Shown one piece after another: positions 54,331 through 64,000 of a stretch of 64,000 nucleotides of DNA. The position numbers and the translations under genes are program-made. Every line of letters begins with the position of its first letter. Within the stretch, counting starts at the first letter, position 1. Below the pieces are notes generated by a model, which saw only the letters and a list, made by a program, of their open reading frames with translations, made no database searches and was not told the DNA's origin. The stretch spans positions 372,001 to 436,000 of the forward strand of contig JABSPZ010000005.1 in the NCBI GenBank assembly GCA_013213785.1, read 5' to 3'. Source of the stretch: Henriciella sp. (GTDB lineage Bacteria > Pseudomonadota > Alphaproteobacteria > Caulobacterales > Hyphomonadaceae).

Positions 54331-57300
54331 CTAGAGGCTTAGCAGCTCGGGATCGCCGCCTTGGGCAGTGATGTTGATGGTCACTGTCCGCTCAGTAGCA
54401 AACCGATGCAGATAATGCGGGCCACCCGCTTTCGGACCCGTGCCAGACAGACCCTCACCCCCAAATGGCTGCACGCCCACCACCGCGCCAATCATTGAGC
54501 GATTGACGTAGCAGTTTCCAATTGGAACAGCTTTTTGAACGGCATCCGCAAAGCGTTCCAAGCGAGAGTGAACGCCGAGGGTCAAACCATACCCTTTGTT
54601 AGCCAGTTCTGCGCCGACGCTTGCAATATCGTCGGGATCATAACGCAGCACATGAAGAACGGGCCCGAATGTCTCGTGATCAATTTGGTCGAGACTGTTC
54701 AATTCAATTAGGGCCGGACCAAAAAAGCTCCCTATATCGGGCGCTTTAACCTGATGTAGGAGTTTTGCCTCCTCGGACATATTCGAAAGGTGTCGCTCTA
54801 GGATGCCGTGCGCTTCCTTATCAATCACTGGACCTATATCGGTTTGTGTAAGGCCGGGATCGCCAAGCGAGAGTTCATCCATTGCGCCCTTTAGACCATC
54901 GATCAAACCATCGGCTGTATCGTGCGGCAGGAAGGCAATGCGTAAAGCTGAGCATCTTTGTCCAGCTGAACCAAAGGCAGATACGATAATATCGTCGATC
55001 ACTTGTTCGCGCAGCGCCGTTGTGTCGACGAAAAGGCCATTCAATCCGCCGGTTTCAGCGATTAAAGGAATGATTGGTCCATCTCGTCCCGCGAGCGTTT
55101 GATTGATCAGTCGCGCCGTCGAAGTGCCGCCTGTGAAGCAAACGCCCGACACGCGAGGATCATTGGTGAGGGCAGCTCCGACTGTTTCACCGCGGCCTGG
55201 AAGCAGGTGAAGTGCTTCGGCCGGAAGTCCTGCTGCTTGGAAGAGCTGAACTGCCTCATATGCGATCAGCGGCGTCTGCTCAGCGGGTTTTGCAACAACA
55301 GTGTTTCCTGCTGCTAGGGCAGCCGCAATTTGTCCTGTAAAGATCGCAAGCGGGAAGTTCCAAGGACTAATGCACGCGAAAACCCCGCGACCGTGGAGTT
55401 GCAGGTGGTTGGTTTCACCGGATGGACCAGGCAGCCGGATTGCCCCCTCGAATTCTGCTTCCGCCTGAGCCGCGTAATACCGGCAGAAGTCTACAGCCTC
55501 TCGTACCTCATCGACCCCATCGGCAAGTGTTTTGCCGGCCTCCCTTGCCATCAACGCGATCAACCGCGCGGCATTGTCCTCAAGCGTATCGCCCATGGCG
55601 CGGAGAATGTCGGCGCGCGCCGCCCCCCGAAGACGATCCCAGGTGGTCTGATATTTGGTGGCGGCCGTAAGCGCTTCATCGATGGCAGTGTCAGAGGCCT
55701 CGACGCAAGTGCCAATCCGCTTCTCATCAACGGGTGAGTTTACATCCGCACCCTTGTCGGTTTCGCTCGTGCCTGAGACAATTGGGCCCGCGGCGATGAC
55801 AGGGCGATCACGCATTTCCTGCATCGCGATCGCAATGGCATCCCGGGCGCTCAGTTGTGAGAGATCCAAACCGGTGGAATTGCTGCGTTCAGGCCCAAAG
55901 AGCCGAGGCGGCGTCGGAATACGCGGATGGCGTCTAGGACCGATTTCAACCTTCGCGATTGGATCTTCCACGACCTGTTCTACCGGAACGTCGGGATCTA
56001 GAAACGCGTGTACAAAGCTCGTATTGGCTCCGTTCTCGAGCAGGCGGCGAACGAGGTAGGGGAGAAGATCTTCGTGGGCGCCTACCGGTGCATAGATCCG
56101 GACCTTGGTCCCGGCATCTGCAGCATCAAACAGCGCTTCACCCATCCCGTGTAGGCGCTGGAACTCGTAGTTTCCGACTCCAGCATCAGCGGCAAGAAGT
56201 TCGATCGCGCTATACGTATGAGCGTTGTGCGTTGCGAATTGCGGATATATCGCCGGCGCGCCCGCCAGCATGGCTTTCGCATTCGCAATGTAGCTGAGGT
56301 CGGTGTTCTGCTTGTTAGTGAAGACCGGGAAGTTTGGGTAGCCCGAGACTTGAGCGTGTTTGATCTCACTATCCCAATAAGCCCCTTTCACCAGACGAAC
56401 CATGAGGCGCATTCCGGACGTTCTTGCCAGCTTGATCAATTCTTGGATGACGCGCCCGCTGCGCTTTTGATACGCCTGAACGGCGAGCCCTAAACCATCC
56501 CATCCTTTGAGAGATGGTTCCGCTGCAAGGCGTTCGAGAAGCTTTAGCGAAATGACCAAACGATCTGCTTCTTCAGCATCTAGGCACAAGTGCATATTGG
56601 TCGCTGCTGCGCGATCACACAGGGTCTTTAGTCTTGGATACAGCTCATCCATGACGCGCGCTTCGTTGACCGCTTCATAGCGCGGATGGAGCGCCGAAAG
56701 TTTCACAGACACGCCGCTAGAAGCTTCAGGTGCGAGTTTTGGATCTTTGTGTTTCGCAACCTGATCGATCGCTTGCGAGTAGGCCTCGTAATATCGGTCA
56801 GCATCCGCTTGGGTGCGGGCGCCTTCGCCAAGCATATCGAAACTGAAATGCGCGGCCTGACCGGAAGCAACAATCCGCTTGCTACGTTTCAGTGCCGCGT
56901 CGACATCGCGGCCGAGAACGAATTGCTCGCCCATGATCCGCATCGCCTGCATCATAGCAGCGCGAATAACGGGCTCGCCGCTTTCCCTAATCAGGCCTTG
57001 CACGAATTTCCCGGCGCCCTTTAGGGCATCCCGTGGCGCGCCGATGACCCGGCCTGTTAGCATCAAACCCCAGGTCGACGCGTTCACGAGCCAGCTGTCA
57101 GATTGCCCCTTGTGAGAATCCCAATCGCCCGATCGAATTTTTTCAGCAATCAGGTCGTCGCGTGTATCCGCATCGGGGACCCGCAGCAGCGCTTCAGCCA
57201 AACACATGAGCGCCAAGCCTTCAGAGTTTGACAGTCCAAACTCTTCTAGGAAGCTCTCCATCATGCCTTTCTTGCGTCCGGTTGCTCGAGCTTTCACGAC

Positions 57301-57462
57301 CAGCTCGCGTCCGATACGCACGGCGCTTCTCCGTTGACCCTCACTCAGGGCTGTCGTCTCCAGCAAGTCTGCAATCAATGCTTCTTCGTCTGCGAACTTT
57401 TCGAGGTCGAGATCATCCCAATTAATTTGGAATTCGGTCGGCATTGGAGCGGTTTGAGACAT
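54331..57462 (-). CDS. putA: Bifunctional proline dehydrogenase / glutamate-semialdehyde dehydrogenase
   Basis: PutA converts proline to glutamate in two steps at the inner membrane, passing electrons to quinone by FAD. The proline dehydrogenase TIM barrel (about residues 120-450) shows VKLSALHPRYEA, MHLCLDAEEADRL, RLVKGAYWDSEIKHAQ and FATHNAHTYSAI. The aldehyde dehydrogenase part (from about 560) has FACISPWNFPLAIFTGQI, FTGGTSTARLI, the Glu of LIAETGGLNG and the Cys of AGQRCSALRIA. At 1043 residues it lacks the ribbon-helix-helix DNA-binding N-terminus of E. coli PutA (1320), so it is not expected to be its own repressor. It is 48 bases downstream of selD on the same strand. Confidence 0.98.
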   Translation of the reverse strand: MSQTAPMPTEFQINWDDLDLEKFADEEALIADLLETTALSEGQRRSAVRIGRELVVKARATGRKKGMMESFLEEFGLSNSEGLALMCLAEALLRVPDADTRDDLIAEKIRSGDWDSHKGQSDSWLVNASTWGLMLTGRVIGAPRDALKGAGKFVQGLIRESGEPVIRAAMMQAMRIMGEQFVLGRDVDAALKRSKRIVASGQAAHFSFDMLGEGARTQADADRYYEAYSQAIDQVAKHKDPKLAPEASSGVSVKLSALHPRYEAVNEARVMDELYPRLKTLCDRAAATNMHLCLDAEEADRLVISLKLLERLAAEPSLKGWDGLGLAVQAYQKRSGRVIQELIKLARTSGMRLMVRLVKGAYWDSEIKHAQVSGYPNFPVFTNKQNTDLSYIANAKAMLAGAPAIYPQFATHNAHTYSAIELLAADAGVGNYEFQRLHGMGEALFDAADAGTKVRIYAPVGAHEDLLPYLVRRLLENGANTSFVHAFLDPDVPVEQVVEDPIAKVEIGPRRHPRIPTPPRLFGPERSNSTGLDLSQLSARDAIAIAMQEMRDRPVIAAGPIVSGTSETDKGADVNSPVDEKRIGTCVEASDTAIDEALTAATKYQTTWDRLRGAARADILRAMGDTLEDNAARLIALMAREAGKTLADGVDEVREAVDFCRYYAAQAEAEFEGAIRLPGPSGETNHLQLHGRGVFACISPWNFPLAIFTGQIAAALAAGNTVVAKPAEQTPLIAYEAVQLFQAAGLPAEALHLLPGRGETVGAALTNDPRVSGVCFTGGTSTARLINQTLAGRDGPIIPLIAETGGLNGLFVDTTALREQVIDDIIVSAFGSAGQRCSALRIAFLPHDTADGLIDGLKGAMDELSLGDPGLTQTDIGPVIDKEAHGILERHLSNMSEEAKLLHQVKAPDIGSFFGPALIELNSLDQIDHETFGPVLHVLRYDPDDIASVGAELANKGYGLTLGVHSRLERFADAVQKAVPIGNCYVNRSMIGAVVGVQPFGGEGLSGTGPKAGGPHYLHRFATERTVTINITAQGGDPELLSL

Positions 57463-57510: not shown

Positions 57511-59721
57511 TCAATTGCCAAGACGTTTTCGGCCAGAAGCGGAGTATCTATCTCTGATATCGATCATCGGCGATCCAGCTTTGATGTAACCTATCGTCCA
57601 GATCGGCTCATCATGTTCCGCAAATTCGGCCAATACTCTTATGATTTGCGTTTCAGGAATGGTAGCGAGCAAGCCGCCACAGGTTTGCGGATCAAAGAAC
57701 AGGTCTTTCAATGCGCCATCGCTCATGTCTACGCGGTCAATTTGAGTCGTGTTTGAAGACCACAGCGTGGATCGAATGCCGGTTTCCGCATATTGGATGG
57801 CGCCGTTTAGGACCGGAATGTTTTGAGCATCAATGTGTGCTGCGACACCCGATGCGACGAGAATGTTGAGCAGATGCCCAGCGAGCCCGAAACCAGTCAC
57901 GTCAGTCATCGCGGTAGCTGCTTTTGCTAGGACCGTAGATGCTGTCGCTTGCGAGCGCAGCATGCTTTCAATCGTAGCTAAATAGTGATCGCCATCCGCG
58001 ACTTGGCGCATCTCGGCAGCGAGCAATACCCCCGTGCCAATAGGTTTCGTGAGGACAATCACATCGCCGTCTTGAGCCCCGTTCTGGCGAACAATTTTGC
58101 ATCCAGCCGGAGCAGATACAGTGAACCCGATGGTGAGCTCTGCGCCGCTACTGGTATGTCCGCCGACGATCTTGGCGCCGCTCGCGTCCACGATTTCATG
58201 AGTGCCTGCCATAACCTCTCGCAACATGTTCGCCTGTTTTTCACTCGCAAGTGGGGGCAGGATGATATGGCTCAGTATTGCTTCGGGCGCTGTGCCCATC
58301 GCCCACATATCGCCTAGGGCATGAATTGCAGCGATTTTCGCGAGCAAATATGGATCAGAATTGAAGGCGCGCAGATGATCGGTACTTAGAATTCGGGCGT
58401 GGTCAGCTGGGCCAATGATTGCGGCGTCTTCCATACTTTTTGACGAAAAACCAAGACCCCTCGTGAGAGGGGCTTGCGCTAGCTTCGCACCGCAGCCTCC
58501 GCATGGGCTTTCGTGTTGCTGGAGGTATTCAGATACGCCATCGGCAACCTTCGGCGGTAGCTGCGTAGAAGGCATATCCATTACTCCCCGAAATTGATTC
58601 ATAAACTTACGATCAATTCGATCCTTGAGGCGCCACACCCAGTCACCGGAGAGCCCGACACCCCATTTGTCGGTAACGGCCGATCTGCGTCCGGTAGAGA
58701 TGAGTTTGAGATAGTCTTTCTGTGGCTTGTAAGATTTTGGCTGCCTGCTTGAAAGTTCGGCGTGTAGATTGTCGAAGAGAATAGGGGCTTGTCGGACCGC
58801 AAACACGCCGGCTTTAGGGCGTGGTGCCTGCGTGAGATACGCGCAATCGCCGACCGCATAAACACCGGGGGCGCCAATCGCTTTCAAGTGTTCGTCGACG
58901 GCTATGTATCCGTCATTCAGGCTTAGCCCAGTCTGCTCAAGCCAATCATGCGGCTTTGCGCCTGCGGCGCTCACGACGAAGTTCGCTTCCACGAGTTGCG
59001 TACCCGAGGCGATATGGATGCCTTGTTCTGACACTTTGGACGCTTTGGTGCTTAGTATGACGTCGACGTTTGAGCGCGCTAATTCGTTGGCCAACACGTT
59101 TCGTGCTCTGGGACGAAGCTCACCTAGGATACTGTCGCCGGCTTCAATCAAACGGACGCGTCCGTCGCCAGCGAGTTCTGTTTTTAGGCGATATGCCATT
59201 GCCAATGCCAACTCGACCCCGGCAACGCCACCACCGAGGATTGCTATGTCGGGTGTTAAGCCGGTGGTTTTTGCGCGTTCTATAAGAGTATCCCACGCTA
59301 TCGAGAACGTCCCAAGTGGTTTTGCGGGCACCAGATGTTTATCCGCGCCGGGCAGATCAATGAGACGAGATGTAATGCCGATATCTATAGACAGCGCGTC
59401 GTAAGCCAGATCAGGCGACGCGCCTAACTGTACGGTCTTCCGCTCAAGGTCGATCCCAATCGCATGGTCAATGACCAGCCGTGCATTTGCTTGCCGCGCC
59501 AGCCTGACAAGATCTATATCAAGTTCGTCTCGATCGTAATGTCCGGCAACAAAGCCGGGGAGCATTCCCGTGTACGGGGCTTTGACCTGCGGGTTCACGA
59601 TGGTGACTTGTGCGCCGGGCAAAGGTGTCATCGCCCATTTCCGCAAGACGAGCGCATGAGCATGACCGCCGCCGAGTAGAACGAGGTCTCGTGTGATGGG
59701 GAGAGGGCGGCTCGCCTGCAC
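57511..59721 (-). CDS. selD: FAD/NAD(P) oxidoreductase fused to selenide, water dikinase (SelD)
   Basis: SelD makes selenophosphate, the selenium donor for selenocysteine, from ATP and selenide. The N-terminal part (about 1-375) is a two-dinucleotide oxidoreductase: VLLGGGHAHALVLRKWAM, later ILGGGVAGVELALAMA and PGVYAVGDCAYL. The SelD part (about 395-736) begins with SPCGGCGAK: Cys407, Cys410 and Lys413 lie in the position of the catalytic Cys/Sec and Lys, so this is a Cys form. Then come STDHLRAFNSDPYLLAKIAAIHALGDMWAMG, ADVTGFGLAGHLL-type DVTGFGLAGHLL and FFDPQTCGGLL. The start is GTG at 59721 with AAAGGAG upstream. The fused oxidoreductase is thought to supply or handle reduced selenium, but this is not proven. 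It is on the same strand as the selenoprotein genes. Confidence 0.96.
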   Translation of the reverse strand: MQASRPLPITRDLVLLGGGHAHALVLRKWAMTPLPGAQVTIVNPQVKAPYTGMLPGFVAGHYDRDELDIDLVRLARQANARLVIDHAIGIDLERKTVQLGASPDLAYDALSIDIGITSRLIDLPGADKHLVPAKPLGTFSIAWDTLIERAKTTGLTPDIAILGGGVAGVELALAMAYRLKTELAGDGRVRLIEAGDSILGELRPRARNVLANELARSNVDVILSTKASKVSEQGIHIASGTQLVEANFVVSAAGAKPHDWLEQTGLSLNDGYIAVDEHLKAIGAPGVYAVGDCAYLTQAPRPKAGVFAVRQAPILFDNLHAELSSRQPKSYKPQKDYLKLISTGRRSAVTDKWGVGLSGDWVWRLKDRIDRKFMNQFRGVMDMPSTQLPPKVADGVSEYLQQHESPCGGCGAKLAQAPLTRGLGFSSKSMEDAAIIGPADHARILSTDHLRAFNSDPYLLAKIAAIHALGDMWAMGTAPEAILSHIILPPLASEKQANMLREVMAGTHEIVDASGAKIVGGHTSSGAELTIGFTVSAPAGCKIVRQNGAQDGDVIVLTKPIGTGVLLAAEMRQVADGDHYLATIESMLRSQATASTVLAKAATAMTDVTGFGLAGHLLNILVASGVAAHIDAQNIPVLNGAIQYAETGIRSTLWSSNTTQIDRVDMSDGALKDLFFDPQTCGGLLATIPETQIIRVLAEFAEHDEPIWTIGYIKAGSPMIDIRDRYSASGRKRLGN

Positions 59722-59777
59722 GGTTGGGGGCTCCTTTCTATCCTTCTCCGGTCGCAGATCCCGGCCTAAAACGCAAT

Positions 59778-59801
59778 CAGCCCGATCTTTCGACCGGGCT
59801 G
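59778..59801 (-). other. Hairpin with GAAA tetraloop between the UGSC gene and selD
   Basis: On the minus strand CAGCCCGGTC and GATCGGGCTG form a ten-pair stem (one G-T pair) closed by GAAA. It begins 24 bases after the UGSC stop. Only a weak TTTT comes five bases after it, so it may be a poor terminator or an mRNA 3'-end stabiliser that lets some transcription reach selD. Confidence 0.55.
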
Positions 59802-59824
59802 ATGAATATTGGAATTGCTATGTT

Positions 59825-60343
59825 CTAGTTAGTAAGCGCACTCACGACTTGATCATAGACCGCGACAGCTTTGGCGCGCATTTCGTCATCATTCGCATCC
59901 TGAATAGGATGATCAACGAGGACGAAGCGAGCGCCGTCCATACCGAGCGCTTCGCGCTGAGTAACCGCCGCATTGTGAAATTCGCTTGAAGCAATCGTAA
60001 CCGCTGGGAGGCCCTGGATTTCAAACCAGACTGTGTCGTGCATACTGCACGTCGTACAAGACCCTCAGTCAGCTAATCCTTCAATCACGAAATCACATTC
60101 CGCTTTCATCTGTGCCCGCAAATCGTCGGGACACGGTTTCGTAAAGGTCGGCTTCGCATAGCGCCGGATCTCAATATCCGGCATGCGTTCCCCCATTAGG
60201 CGTTCCAGCTCATCGAGCAGAACATCGCCGCGGGGTTTGCGAATATCCATCAAGCCGACCACCCCTGAGACCTGTCCGCTGCGCGGCGTAATCTGCCGAC
60301 TTACTGGAACAGCTTCATCAGTGGGATCGAGAATTACGGTCAT
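59825..60343 (-). CDS. UGSC-family selenoprotein (in-frame TGA read as selenocysteine)
   Basis: The ATG at 60343 (GGAGGAAGA just upstream) opens a frame with TGA at codon 93 (60067-60065), flanked by ...VIEGLAD and GSCTTCSMHDTVW. Read as selenocysteine, it gives 172 residues with the motif Sec-Gly-Ser-Cys that names the UGSC (seleno)protein family; the N-terminus ILDPTDEAVPVSRQITP also fits that family. The Sec-G-S-C-T-x-C pattern resembles the Sec site of glycine-reductase GrdB subunits (from memory). Product: a probable selenium/thiol redox protein, substrate unknown. The start is 14 bases after the partner gene stop. A SECIS-like hairpin follows the TGA, and tRNA-Sec, selB and selD are neighbours. 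Standard gene callers would report two fragments, 60343-60065 and 60043-59825. Confidence 0.93.
60037..60051 (-). promoter_or_regulatory. Candidate bacterial SECIS hairpin
   Basis: Thirteen bases after the recoded TGA, CGTGC pairs with GCACG around loop AGTAT. Outer pairing (TTGT with ACAG-type partners, through a small bulge) lengthens the stem. The apical loop begins 19 bases after TGA and has G at its second place, which fits the general bacterial SECIS description (loop 16-37 bases after UGA with an early G). SelB would bind this hairpin. Confidence 0.7.
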
Positions 60344-60357
60344 TCTTCCTCCTTCTT

Positions 60358-61944
60358 CTAGATATCTTCAATCTTCCGGGACACTGATTGCGATCCCATT
60401 GCGCCGGTCACCCAGCCATGAAACGCGCTCGAGAATTTCCCGGCGTCTGAGCCTGCAACTACCATATGGATATAATCGGAGCTGGCAAATTTCGGGACCT
60501 GCTTGTCGAGCTGTTCAGCGCTGAGTTTTGCGGCAGCGTCGCGGGTCATTCCGGCGCCAGACACATCGTCTGCGACCATGTCTCGCAAAGGCCGCTTTGT
60601 GACCTCCTGGATCCGGTCCCTCAGCCTGGATTTCTCATACTCGCCGTCTTTCAGGAGCGTATCTATGTGTTCCGGACACACAACTAACAGCGTATCGACG
60701 GGCATCATGTGATACTTAGGTAGGAAAAGAGCCTCCAGACCGAGCGCCAAAGATCCTGCGATTTCATCAGGAGCACGGGACTCCTGATCGACAATGTTCA
60801 CAGGGCCAGATGTCATAGCGAAGGCCGTCACGACTGAGTCTTCAGCTTTAAACCCGCGTTCAACATGGAGCGGCGCCCATGGCGAGCGCTCTTCCCATTC
60901 GGCGAAGCACATCGTGATCTTCATCGGGTTGCCAAGCGTTGATCGATCCGTGCCGCCCGGTTTTGCGCCACCAATATTACGGATGGCGAGACGAACTGCG
61001 CGTCCGATCGTGGCGTTCGCGCGGTTGCCGCTTCCAAGTGCTCCGAGGCCGCTATTCATTCCTATTCGTTCCCGAATGGGGCCGTTTACGACAAGGACGG
61101 GTGAGGCGCCCATGGTCGTTGCCATAACGCCATGTATGTTGAATTCGTCGGTGCAAACCGCTTCAATCGCGGCGATTACCACGGGCAAGTATTCTGGCTT
61201 ACAGCCCGCCATGACCGCATTGATCGCGACTTTCTCGATCGTCGCTTCCCCCATATTGGGCGGCATTTGTGCAATCACTTCCTGCGCATCGCGCCGGGTG
61301 CCAGACAACATCCGCATAACGCGCTCTGGTGTGGGCGGAACCAAAGGAAGGCCATCTGAGAAGCCCTGATCAAACATGAACTCGGCAACGTCATCCGCGC
61401 TCGCAACTTCAATCTTGCGCGCACGGATAGGGCTGTCATCAGCCTCGGCCTGGAGGCGGTCGTGAATGTCTGGATCTAAGTGTTTGGACCCGCACCCTGG
61501 GCGCCAATCCGGAAGCGAGTCCCAATCTATCTGCGCCGGCGCTAATTCAAGTGCAGCGGAGATGTCCGTATTTAGATCTTGCCACTCTGACTTTACGAAG
61601 CCTTCGAACATGGTCGCGGCGGAGGCTCCATCTGGGCACCAATAAATGGCGGGCACGATGTCGAAATAGAAGACAAACGAGGTCTTGAGCGTGGTATCCT
61701 CCAGTATGGGAAGCGTCAGGCCGTGCCGGTCTTTCAAAATCAATCCGCCATCGCGGGTTTGACTGATCATCCAGATATTCACGCTCTCGCCAAAGGCACT
61801 GTGCATGGCTTGGACGAGCGGCACAGCAAGGTTGCAGGTCGCGCAGTCCTCTTTCACGAAACAGAGAAGAGTAGGGCGCACTGATGGGAACGCATGGGAA
61901 GCGCCATCGAGGTCTTGGAGTTCAAACCCAGGAACTTCAGTCAT
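60358..61944 (-). CDS. Thioredoxin-fused partner protein of the UGSC selenoprotein
   Basis: The 528-residue protein has an N-terminal thioredoxin-like domain (about 1-135) with a CATC motif at Cys34-Cys37 (FVKEDCATCNLAVPLV) and a cis-Pro-like VPAIYW near residue 98. The rest (about 180-528) is a domain I associate with UGSC-type operons: GFSDGLPLVPPTPERVMRML, ATIEKVAINAVMAGCKPEYLPVVIAAIEA, NIHGVMATTMGASPVLVVNGPI and a Gly/Asn-rich GLGALGSGNRANATIGRA. No signal peptide is seen, so it is cytoplasmic. It starts at ATG 61944 with GGTGGAG upstream and lies 14 bases before the selenoprotein. The thioredoxin part may reduce the Sec site during turnover (inference). The chemical reaction is unknown. 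Confidence 0.85.
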   Translation of the reverse strand: MTEVPGFELQDLDGASHAFPSVRPTLLCFVKEDCATCNLAVPLVQAMHSAFGESVNIWMISQTRDGGLILKDRHGLTLPILEDTTLKTSFVFYFDIVPAIYWCPDGASAATMFEGFVKSEWQDLNTDISAALELAPAQIDWDSLPDWRPGCGSKHLDPDIHDRLQAEADDSPIRARKIEVASADDVAEFMFDQGFSDGLPLVPPTPERVMRMLSGTRRDAQEVIAQMPPNMGEATIEKVAINAVMAGCKPEYLPVVIAAIEAVCTDEFNIHGVMATTMGASPVLVVNGPIRERIGMNSGLGALGSGNRANATIGRAVRLAIRNIGGAKPGGTDRSTLGNPMKITMCFAEWEERSPWAPLHVERGFKAEDSVVTAFAMTSGPVNIVDQESRAPDEIAGSLALGLEALFLPKYHMMPVDTLLVVCPEHIDTLLKDGEYEKSRLRDRIQEVTKRPLRDMVADDVSGAGMTRDAAAKLSAEQLDKQVPKFASSDYIHMVVAGSDAGKFSSAFHGWVTGAMGSQSVSRKIEDI

Positions 61945-62021
61945 GTCTCCACCTTCCGCAATTTCAGAAAACTATGCTGAGATTCCAGAGCATGTCCACG
62001 CGTTGCGCAGCGTCACTTAAT

Positions 62022-62117
62022 TGGCGGAGGCGGATGGGAATCGAACCCACCACACGCCGGTAACGACGCGTCGCTGGTTTTGAAGACCAGGGAAGCCACC
62101 AGACTACAGTCGCCTCC
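62022..62117 (-). tRNA. selC: tRNA-Sec (UCA)
   Basis: A 96-base tRNA with encoded CCA, longer than normal tRNAs. The 5' end GGAGGCGA faces CCGCCTCC (seven pairs and one A-C contact, as expected for the extended Sec acceptor stem). The anticodon stem CTGGT/ACCAG holds CTTCAAA, anticodon TCA. A long variable arm of about 20 bases and the T arm GGGTTCGATTCCC follow. It lies 41 bases after the selB stop and 77 before the partner gene, all on one strand. Confidence 0.97.
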
Positions 62118-62158
62118 GCATCCGCTCAGACTTATAGCGCAGGTCTACGATCGCAAGT

Positions 62159-64000
62159 TCATTCGCGCGTCTCCGCCACTTTAATCACGCGAACGTTGCC
62201 ATCCCTGATCGTAATGCCTTGAGCATCGAGGTGCTCTAGCAATGGTACGATGGTTTTTCGATTGGTGGACAGCGCGGCTCGCGCTTCCCCTGTCTTAAAC
62301 GTTTGCCCTCCTGGAAAAGCGCGCTGCAGAGACGTGATCGCTCCAGCAACAACCTCAGACTGAAGTATAACGGTTTGGCTCAGGGCATGATTGTACAAAC
62401 GGACGGCCTCTCCATTCCACACCATCAGGTCGATCAAGTCGGCGTGTTCAATCTCCAATGAAGTCGGGTCCAAGAGTAGTTCTGGCATCAGGCTTGTACG
62501 CCGGAGTTGCTCGATAGCGTCTTGATAAAGCTCACGCTGAGCAGGTCCGAGGTGCTCGTTTGGATCATGTCCGACGATAGACATCCCATCCAAGCGCTCT
62601 TCGATTTCATTTTTGTCGACAAGAGATCGAACCGCATAAATCAGCAACTCCCTGGGGACGTGTTTGAAGGCGGCGCTCGAACCGGGTGATGGGGCGTGCG
62701 GCCTCAGCGGGCGATCTTTATGGAACGCTCGCATTGTTTCGACCAGACGCGCCTTCACGGAATCGATCTCCGCGATTGAGTGGGCAATGCGAGCCCCGTC
62801 AATAATGAAGTCGCGTCTTATGATGGCTGAACAGTTATCGATGGTTTTTCGAGCCAATCTCGAAAGCAAAGCAAGGTCTACAGACCCTTGATCTCGCTCG
62901 GAAATGCCCTTTGCAATCGCGAGCACGTCTGAGTTCGCAGCCGCCCTGAGAACGGCGACGTAAAGCTCTTTGTTTCGCTTCGCTAGCACGGCTTCCGCAT
63001 CTAAGACTTGTCCGCCGCAAATGGTTTGAGATGATGCGGGTCGCCGCAGGATAAAACGCTGTCCAACAAAGCCAATTTGATCGTTCTCGAACTCTAACTG
63101 CGCGATCGTGGCGTCTTGCTCGCTAGTTCCGAGGATTCGAACGCGCGCGGGACTACGACGCGTTCCGTGAAGAACCGTAACGGATTCCATATGGGATAGC
63201 CGACGGGTGCCTTCATCTGGCGCGTTGATCATGACATCGAACAGGCAGCTTGGCTGACCTTGGCCGGGCGCGCAAAGAACGTCACCTCTCCTGATATCCT
63301 GCGATTTGATGCCTCTTAGATTTACAGCGACCCGAGCGCCAACCGTAGCTTTCTCCGCGGTTTGGCCAGCGATTTGAAGCCCGCGCACGGAACAGGCTGT
63401 TTCCATTGGTTGGATCGTGACCGCGTCGTCCAAAGAGAGCTCACCGCCTAATAATGTGCCGGTCACTATCGTACCCGCACCCTCGGCTGAGAAAGCGCGA
63501 TCAATGGGAAGGAAAGCCCGATCGGGAGACGAGCTTTGCCCTTCTGAGCCAAACAAATCTTTCAAAGCGGCAGCGAGCCGATCAATACCTTCCATCGTCC
63601 GACTTGAGCACCTGATGATCGGGGACGCATCAAACCCATGTTCGCGAAGTAGTTCGGCGATAGCTCGTGGCGTGTTTTCGCTTGAGGCATTGTGGTCGAT
63701 GTCCGATTTGCTGAACGCAACAACCGCATCTCGAATGCCAAATAGCTTTGCGAGTTTGAGATGTTCAACGGTCTGATGAGATGGTCCTTCGCTCGAATCT
63801 ACAACCAGGAGAATAGCATCAGCACCGCTTAGGCCCGCTGCAGCGGTTTGGATAAAGTCGGCATGGCCGGGCGTGTCGATAAAGTGCAACCATCCTTCGG
63901 AGGCCTGCTGATTGGCGAAGCCGAGAACGATACTAAGTCCGCGTTTGCGCTCCTCCTCCAGTCGATCCGTGTCCGTTCCCGTGAGCGCTTTCACAAGCGC
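62159..64000 (-). CDS. selB: Selenocysteine-specific elongation factor SelB (partial, N-terminus outside window)
   Basis: SelB is the EF-Tu-like GTPase that brings Sec-tRNA to UGA codons marked by a SECIS hairpin. The frame is open to the window edge, with 613 residues visible; the family has about 615-640, so only the first ~12-20 (with the G1 loop) are lost. Visible are ALTGTDTDRLEEERKRGLSIVLGF (switch region), FIDTPGHADF (G3), VAFSKSDID (G4), EF-Tu-like domains 2 and 3, and at the C-terminus winged-helix repeats (SLQRAFPGGQTFKTGEARAAL, VPLLEHLDAQGITIRDGNVRVI) that bind SECIS RNA. selA is expected upstream, beyond 64000. Confidence 0.96.
   Translation of the reverse strand, partial: ALVKALTGTDTDRLEEERKRGLSIVLGFANQQASEGWLHFIDTPGHADFIQTAAAGLSGADAILLVVDSSEGPSHQTVEHLKLAKLFGIRDAVVAFSKSDIDHNASSENTPRAIAELLREHGFDASPIIRCSSRTMEGIDRLAAALKDLFGSEGQSSSPDRAFLPIDRAFSAEGAGTIVTGTLLGGELSLDDAVTIQPMETACSVRGLQIAGQTAEKATVGARVAVNLRGIKSQDIRRGDVLCAPGQGQPSCLFDVMINAPDEGTRRLSHMESVTVLHGTRRSPARVRILGTSEQDATIAQLEFENDQIGFVGQRFILRRPASSQTICGGQVLDAEAVLAKRNKELYVAVLRAAANSDVLAIAKGISERDQGSVDLALLSRLARKTIDNCSAIIRRDFIIDGARIAHSIAEIDSVKARLVETMRAFHKDRPLRPHAPSPGSSAAFKHVPRELLIYAVRSLVDKNEIEERLDGMSIVGHDPNEHLGPAQRELYQDAIEQLRRTSLMPELLLDPTSLEIEHADLIDLMVWNGEAVRLYNHALSQTVILQSEVVAGAITSLQRAFPGGQTFKTGEARAALSTNRKTIVPLLEHLDAQGITIRDGNVRVIKVAETRE

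Follow-up and report, generated by a model that had tools for sequence, protein, structure and literature searches.

What does a bacterium do with a compact set of selenocysteine (Sec) genes when the proteins that they appear to serve have no assigned reaction? This question is raised by positions 57511 to 64000 of a 64,000-nucleotide stretch of Henriciella sp. DNA (contig JABSPZ010000005.1), referred to here as the window, where the minus strand carries, in the order of transcription, selB, a tRNA-Sec, a gene for a thioredoxin-fused protein, a gene of the UGSC selenoprotein family and a gene for an Ndh-type oxidoreductase fused to SelD. The thioredoxin-fused protein adjoining the UGSC gene is called PART in this report. 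All five features were confirmed in the place and common orientation given by a preliminary description of the locus, and its view of a selenium-dependent redox unit with decoding genes, whose client pair lacks an assigned reaction, is supported.

The genes, their partnership, the conservation of Sec, the predicted fold, the remote homology to GrdB and the linkage to thioredoxin (Trx) or thioredoxin reductase (TrxR) are computed results. We read UGSC-PART, with about even confidence, as a Trx-dependent, GrdB-like selenoreductase consisting of two parts, for which the substrate and the chemistry are inferred.

The UGSC-PART pair and its Sec codon

The UGSC gene (59825..60343, minus strand) encodes a selenoprotein of 172 aa, which was assigned using NF041046 (169 bits, cut-off 125) and PF24696 (162.9 bits, cut-off 25); the reference record of the family, ABI76733.1, presumably comes from Hyphomonas. 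Because the family is named, NCBI-style annotation need not miss the gene, contrary to the earlier expectation that it would be missed or split. The PART gene (60358..61944, minus strand) encodes 528 aa, comprising a Trx-like N-terminal domain and a C-terminal domain.

The occurrence of the two genes was determined by profile searches for UGSC, PART and selA in 385 genomes of the host's class. UGSC was found in 40 genomes and PART in 38, and all 38 PART genomes also had UGSC. The two genomes with UGSC only (G228 and G291) gave partial matches (19-21 bits), which do not extend as far as the Sec motif. A query with PART alone confirmed at least 586 stretches in named genomes, and the best 80 were kept, hereafter the contig loci. 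A UGSC match was present on the contig in all 80, being cut by the contig end in one (L128) and split by a TAG in another (L136). By record name, the 80 loci belong to Alpha-, Gamma- and Deltaproteobacteria, Acidimicrobiales and other Actinomycetota, Chloroflexi and Acidobacteria. PART was also present in 24 plasmid records; 17 of these were examined, seven of them haloarchaeal, and UGSC stood beside PART in 16. When the class, contig and plasmid sets are taken together (158 loci), PART without UGSC occurs in one locus (L274) and UGSC without PART in three (L048, L056 and L072). The 158 UGSC domains are distributed as 113 after a separate PART, 18 before PART, 16 fused to it and 11 with no PART within 700 bp on the strand.

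Of the 40 class genomes in which UGSC was matched, 21 have between two and eight copies. For the 45 genes fetched from multi-copy genomes, the distances among UGSC and among PART copies correlate with r = 0.93, while 1000 within-genome shuffles of the partners gave a mean r of 0.14 and a maximum of 0.51. PART is a dedicated partner of UGSC, and the paralogue pairs co-evolve. A selA match above the cut-off was obtained in 56 of the 385 class genomes and in 35 of the 38 UGSC-PART genomes. The three pair genomes without such a match are G326 and G363, where UGSC contains no TGA, and G011, which is 77% complete; in G246, selA is present, yet UGSC contains no TGA.

On the haloarchaeal plasmids L265, L271, L273 and L275, a Cys-form UGSC is accompanied by one or two PART genes, and genes for CoA-transferases, DUF6282 proteins and MFS or TRAP transporters are among those nearby. 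In the 11 kb retrieved for the PART of Haladaptatus (L274:4977-5984), UGSC is absent; in other respects the surrounding genes resemble those of Halorientalis (L271).

The UGSC motif in the window is D-U-G-S-C-T-T-C-S-M-H-D, where the single in-frame TGA, codon 93 (60065..60067, minus strand), is taken as a read-through codon for Sec93 and is followed by G-S-C. The equivalent of codon 93 is Sec (TGA) in 138 and Cys in 4 of the 142 full-length UGSC copies of the class and contig loci, a set that excludes matches no longer than 130 residues as well as L136 (TAG) and L128 (contig end), the plasmid copies being counted separately. The pattern D-U-x-x-C-x-x-C-x-x-H-D is found in 117 of these 142 copies, and positions 93, 96 and 99 (UxxCxxC) are invariant in the UGSC alignment. 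Among the 16 plasmid copies, 12 have Cys, three have Sec (L266, L268 and L276) and one has Met. The preliminary description expected homologues to keep Sec or Cys at the TGA position, and this is the case for the 142 full-length and 15 of the plasmid copies, the only exception being the Met copy, a very divergent match of 25 bits. It is a UGSC-PART fusion on a Vibrio europaeus plasmid (L277:4443-6005), beside aconitase X and DUF126 genes.

Downstream of the TGA, an apical hairpin resembling a Sec insertion sequence (SECIS) was located at 60037..60051 on the minus strand, with a 6-bp stem and G-U at the start of the loop; its start lies 16 nt downstream of the first TGA base. Over 138 copies, the 48 bases from the TGA had a mean z of −1.37 relative to synonymous shuffles, compared with −0.36 for an upstream control stretch. 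When the pairs were counted directly in 125 distinct family sequences, the six stem pairs were formed in 99, 97, 94, 94, 100 and 81%, GT stood at the loop start in 117 sequences, and two pairs of third codon bases varied on both sides; as the coding columns are conserved, a shifted register still allows some of the stem pairs. The SECIS-like hairpin is seen at the level of the family, and the gene in the window has the 6-bp stem with a stability that is not unusual (z = 0.48 and 0.38). Because Sec is kept in nearly all full-length copies and the hairpin recurs across the family, the TGA looks like genuine recoding and not decay. In the UGSC gene of Candidatus Blastococcus massiliensis, the Sec codon is TAG and not TGA (L136:9266-9268). 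This fits a passage of PMC5330540 in which UGSC-motif selenoproteins of Geodermatophilaceae accompany a tRNA-Sec with anticodon CUA.

Predicted fold, kinship with GrdB and electron supply

The structure of UGSC was predicted using AlphaFold2 with a mean predicted local distance difference test (pLDDT) score of 93.0. The model consists of alternating strands and helices, and Sec is located directly before the helix of residues 94-109. In the Foldseek search, the best PDB folds were flavodoxin-like flavin mononucleotide reductases and azoreductases, not thioredoxins, so the predicted fold is flavodoxin-like and differs from the thioredoxin fold once suggested in 2008. Among the PDB sequences, none was convincingly related to UGSC; the best, with E = 0.014, was a 'phosphate-loop protein'.

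The relation to GrdB was evaluated by comparing profiles with hhalign, using nine GrdB proteins from the phylum of a Desulfatitalea genome and 45 control families. The UGSC profile scored 95.3% (E 2.2e-8) against the nine GrdB proteins. With GrdB as the query, the PrdB-like profile ranked first (99.9%) and UGSC second (96.1%, E 3.3e-9), while the best of the 45 control families reached 1.3%. With UGSC as the query, the PrdB-like profile scored 89.6% (E 1.9e-6) and the best control 24.4%. In an hmmsearch of 1640 reading frames with UGSC, three GrdB proteins ranked at the top, with E values of 2.2e-6 to 1.1e-5. The UGSC-GrdB alignment places Sec on Sec. Judged by these comparisons, UGSC and the Sec domain of GrdB are remote homologues.

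Two observations on GrdB relatives were made in passing. A GrdB-like protein at L243:759-4457 has the Sec motif U-G-S-C-T-R-C, close to the UGSC motif. PrdB-like proteins (PF07355) were collected from bacteria (L177-L226), many of which also have UGSC, and a TGA lies in the matched stretch of 47 of the 51 frames.

The AlphaFold2 model of PART has a mean pLDDT of 93.2 and contains an N-terminal Trx-like domain, from residue 1 to about 135 with C34xxC37, and a C-terminal domain of residues 184-528. Foldseek matched the model to ResA/TlpA-type Trx-like proteins, and by sequence there was a weak MauD match on residues 5-63. In the PART alignment, C37 is invariant and C34 nearly invariant. Within the C-terminal domain, Cys248 (61201..61203, minus strand) lies in the motif N-A-V-M-A-G-C, which is conserved according to three alignments and column counts. 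This domain gave no credible family in Pfam or NCBIfam and no credible PDB match by sequence. The 50 PDB matches listed by Foldseek for full-length PART are Trx-like, uncharacterised or Bcp1, and since all of them are only of the size of the Trx domain, the C-terminal domain stays unplaced by fold. An identity of PART with the pyruvoyl subunit GrdE/PrdA was considered and rejected, as its profile scored 0.1% against nine PF09338 proteins.

The fusion of a Trx domain is seen in 102 of the 176 PART copies. A separate Trx gene lies within 2.5 kb of six copies and a TrxR-like gene within 3 kb of 21, one copy having both; fused Trx and TrxR together were found in none of the 176. The gene order is trxB-trxA-PART-UGSC on an Arthrobacter plasmid and PART-UGSC-trxB on a Roseovarius plasmid, and trxB lies three genes before PART-UGSC on a Variovorax plasmid. 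In all three of these records, UGSC is the Cys form.

Proposed reaction cycle and other readings

In the proposed cycle, SelA, SelB, tRNA-Sec and the SelD fusion would supply Sec, which the locus would use in one two-part enzyme. UGSC would be the catalytic subunit, a single domain remotely like GrdB/PrdB, with Sec at the start of a helix in the flavodoxin-like fold. By analogy with GrdB, Sec93 would attack an activated carbon of the substrate and displace the leaving group, and Cys96 or Cys99 would then resolve the intermediate, freeing the reduced product and forming a Se-S bond. Substrate binding and the holding of UGSC would most likely fall to PART's own domain. The CxxC Trx domain of PART, or a separate Trx and/or TrxR in other lineages, would reduce the Se-S bond and so ready the enzyme for another turnover. 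The physical association of UGSC with PART, the reductive cleavage of a C-X bond, the function of PART's own domain and the substrate are inferred. In the GrdB system as summarised in a part of PMC13188914, GrdB is assigned to substrate binding and ammonia release, and Trx participates in the reduction at GrdA.

Several results weigh against this selenoreductase. The Foldseek matches of UGSC are low, with a template modelling (TM) score of about 0.45. The PrdB-like profile as the query gave UGSC 87.8%, but also one control at 45.4%, and the remaining GrdB proteins were weak in the hmmsearch (E values of 0.006 to 3), one not being listed. In the first, shallower profile comparisons, the PrdB-like scores were 35-67% and controls reached 36.5%; it took deeper alignments and genuine GrdB proteins to make the comparison convincing. 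Much of the score comes from the C-G-x-C core, since every profile represents Sec by Cys. No match of UGSC to the Pfam GRDB family PF07355 was obtained up to E = 1, and UGSC is for this reason regarded as a remote relative and not a member of GrdB/PrdB. Since PART is not detectably GrdE/PrdA, the pyruvoyl activation of the GrdB system has no visible counterpart. Neither Trx nor TrxR was found near 48 of the 176 PART copies; moreover, some of the proteins behind the TrxR profile came from near PART loci, so that the control windows matter, and in those of the same class genomes Trx or TrxR occurred in 0 of 20. Cys replaces Sec in 4 of the 142 full-length copies and in 12 of the 16 plasmid copies. 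Finally, none of 18 neighbour families compared between 34 class windows longer than 19 kb and 20 control windows was clearly enriched, and the substrate was not revealed. The LLM family was present in 10 of 34 class windows and 1 of 20 controls (p = 0.039, uncorrected), the acyl-CoA ligase was commoner in the controls (p = 0.022), ABC LivF gave p = 0.056, and the other families were not significant.

A different function was suggested by the UxxC motif and by the Trx and TrxR counts given above, namely that UGSC is a Trx-like redox or antioxidant selenoprotein, acting in thiol-disulphide exchange or peroxide removal, with PART as its protein substrate or scaffold; a redox interpretation is already in print in a passage of PMC2398784. 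This is unlikely in our judgement. The predicted fold, in which helix 94-109 has Sec at its N-terminus, is flavodoxin-like and not Trx-like, and the remote homology is to GrdB. Furthermore, because many genomes contain multiple copies and the pairs co-evolve, substrate-specific enzymes fit better than a general antioxidant.

We consider it equally improbable that UGSC-PART is a two-part catabolic enzyme without reductive C-X cleavage, such as an isomerase, lyase or hydrolase, where Trx would only keep Sec reduced. Such an enzyme would agree with the plasmid relatives, which stand among CoA-transferases, LLM enzymes and carboxylate transporters, and with the PART copies that have neither Trx nor TrxR nearby. 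However, neighbours of this kind were not clearly enriched over the control windows in the class set, and the UxxCxxC motif and the homology to GrdB point to redox turnover.

Sec machinery of the locus and comparison with known systems

The selB gene (62159..64000, minus strand) encodes the Sec-specific elongation factor, with 255.8 bits for TIGR00475 (cut-off 242.25). Its first 16 codons, counted from the likely ATG of M-H-K-T-I-A, lie beyond position 64000, and the full open reading frame (ORF) is contained in L002. The tRNA-Sec (62022..62117, minus strand), with anticodon UCA, was found by ARAGORN and scored 73.2 bits for Rfam RF01852 (gathering 47). The Ndh-type pyridine nucleotide-disulphide oxidoreductase fused to SelD (57511..59721, minus strand) exceeded the cut-offs of both TIGR03169 (484.1 bits) and TIGR00476 (244.5 bits); its SelD part has a CxxC within C-G-G-C-G-A-K, and it is the only one above the cut-off among the four SelD matches in the genome. 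The search for selA past position 64000 proposed in the preliminary description was successful, since selA is the next gene upstream, just outside the window (contig 436069-437427, TIGR00474, 584.9 bits). The Sec-decoding trait of the genome is complete, consisting of selA, selB, tRNA-Sec and selD. On the same strand, 48 bp downstream of the fusion, a 1043-aa ORF (54331-57462) encodes what we take to be a PutA-type proline dehydrogenase/aldehyde dehydrogenase.

The Sec cluster is conserved in the host's lineage: of the 14 loci closest to that of the window (L097-L110), 12 have a tRNA-Sec. In the fetched flanks, selA and selB accompany UGSC-PART in a minority of loci (17 of the 80 contig loci and 5 of the 61 class loci), and no selA, selB or SelD-fusion match was obtained in 63 and 56 of them, respectively. 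The preliminary term 'self-contained' is consequently not valid as a general property, in view also of the Cys forms on haloarchaeal plasmids. That UGSC-PART belongs to selenium metabolism itself, in delivery, storage or sensing for SelD, is very unlikely: the pair adjoins tRNA-Sec in the lineage and here precedes SelD, and none of the four other selenoproteins named below was found in its host, but most loci elsewhere have no selA, selB or SelD-fusion match in the fetched flanks, Cys forms exist on haloarchaeal plasmids and in two genomes of the class that gave no selA match (G326 and G363), and many genomes contain many UGSC copies.

Four other selenoproteins were sought in the host genome, and no FdhA above the cut-off, GrdB/PrdB, SelW-like protein or MnmH was found. 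UGSC may for this reason be the main reason for keeping the Sec pathway in this genome, where other selenoproteins are possible. Tentatively, and with less confidence than in the selenoreductase itself, UGSC-PART could be a widespread second selenoenzyme of the GrdB/PrdB type, two-component and Trx-powered without a pyruvoyl subunit, diversified into many substrate-specific pairs, with a Cys form in haloarchaea and with a host that, as far as tested, keeps the whole Sec pathway for it.

The client is not new. UGSC, its fusion with 'Unknown_1' and the Ndh-SelD fusion were published in 2008, where passages of PMC2398784 count 255 Sec copies of UGSC and 21 Cys homologues in the Global Ocean Sampling (GOS) survey; 'Unknown_1' is probably PART. 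UGSC is among the commoner selenoproteins of aquatic metagenomes and is given without function in the parts covered of that paper and of a 2026 review, which lists it, with the reference record ABI76733.1, among proteins of largely uncharacterised function (PMC2398784, PMC13188914). In the open-licence passages covered, a scope outside which most of the subscription literature lies, UGSC is nowhere connected with GrdB, and PART is not described as its constant partner. The present analysis adds the partnership with PART, the conservation of Sec, the flavodoxin-like predicted fold with the homology to GrdB, and the linkage to Trx or TrxR. A near-constant partner, a likely electron source and a distant kinship with glycine reductase turn the orphan UGSC into a defined enzyme for assay, and they suggest GrdB-like selenium chemistry outside the anaerobes that ferment amino acids.

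Compared with the known systems, the protein in the window shares family, motif and Sec with UGSC (NF041046/PF24696), while the Trx-like fold guessed in 2008 is not borne out by the predicted model. The Ndh-SelD fusion has the same two domains and the CxxC in the SelD part as the one described in the passages of PMC2398784, with no notable difference. UGSC differs from GrdB/PrdB (PF07355) in being a single domain of about 170 aa and in having PART as its partner instead of the pyruvoyl GrdE/PrdA. It resembles GrdB/PrdB in the UxxCxxC motif, which agrees with the Sec motif of GrdB as printed in passages of PMC13188914 and PMC6778437 and takes the form U-G-[TS]-C-T-R-C in five of the nine GrdB proteins, in a similar H-P-[IL] motif downstream, and in an electron supply linked to Trx.

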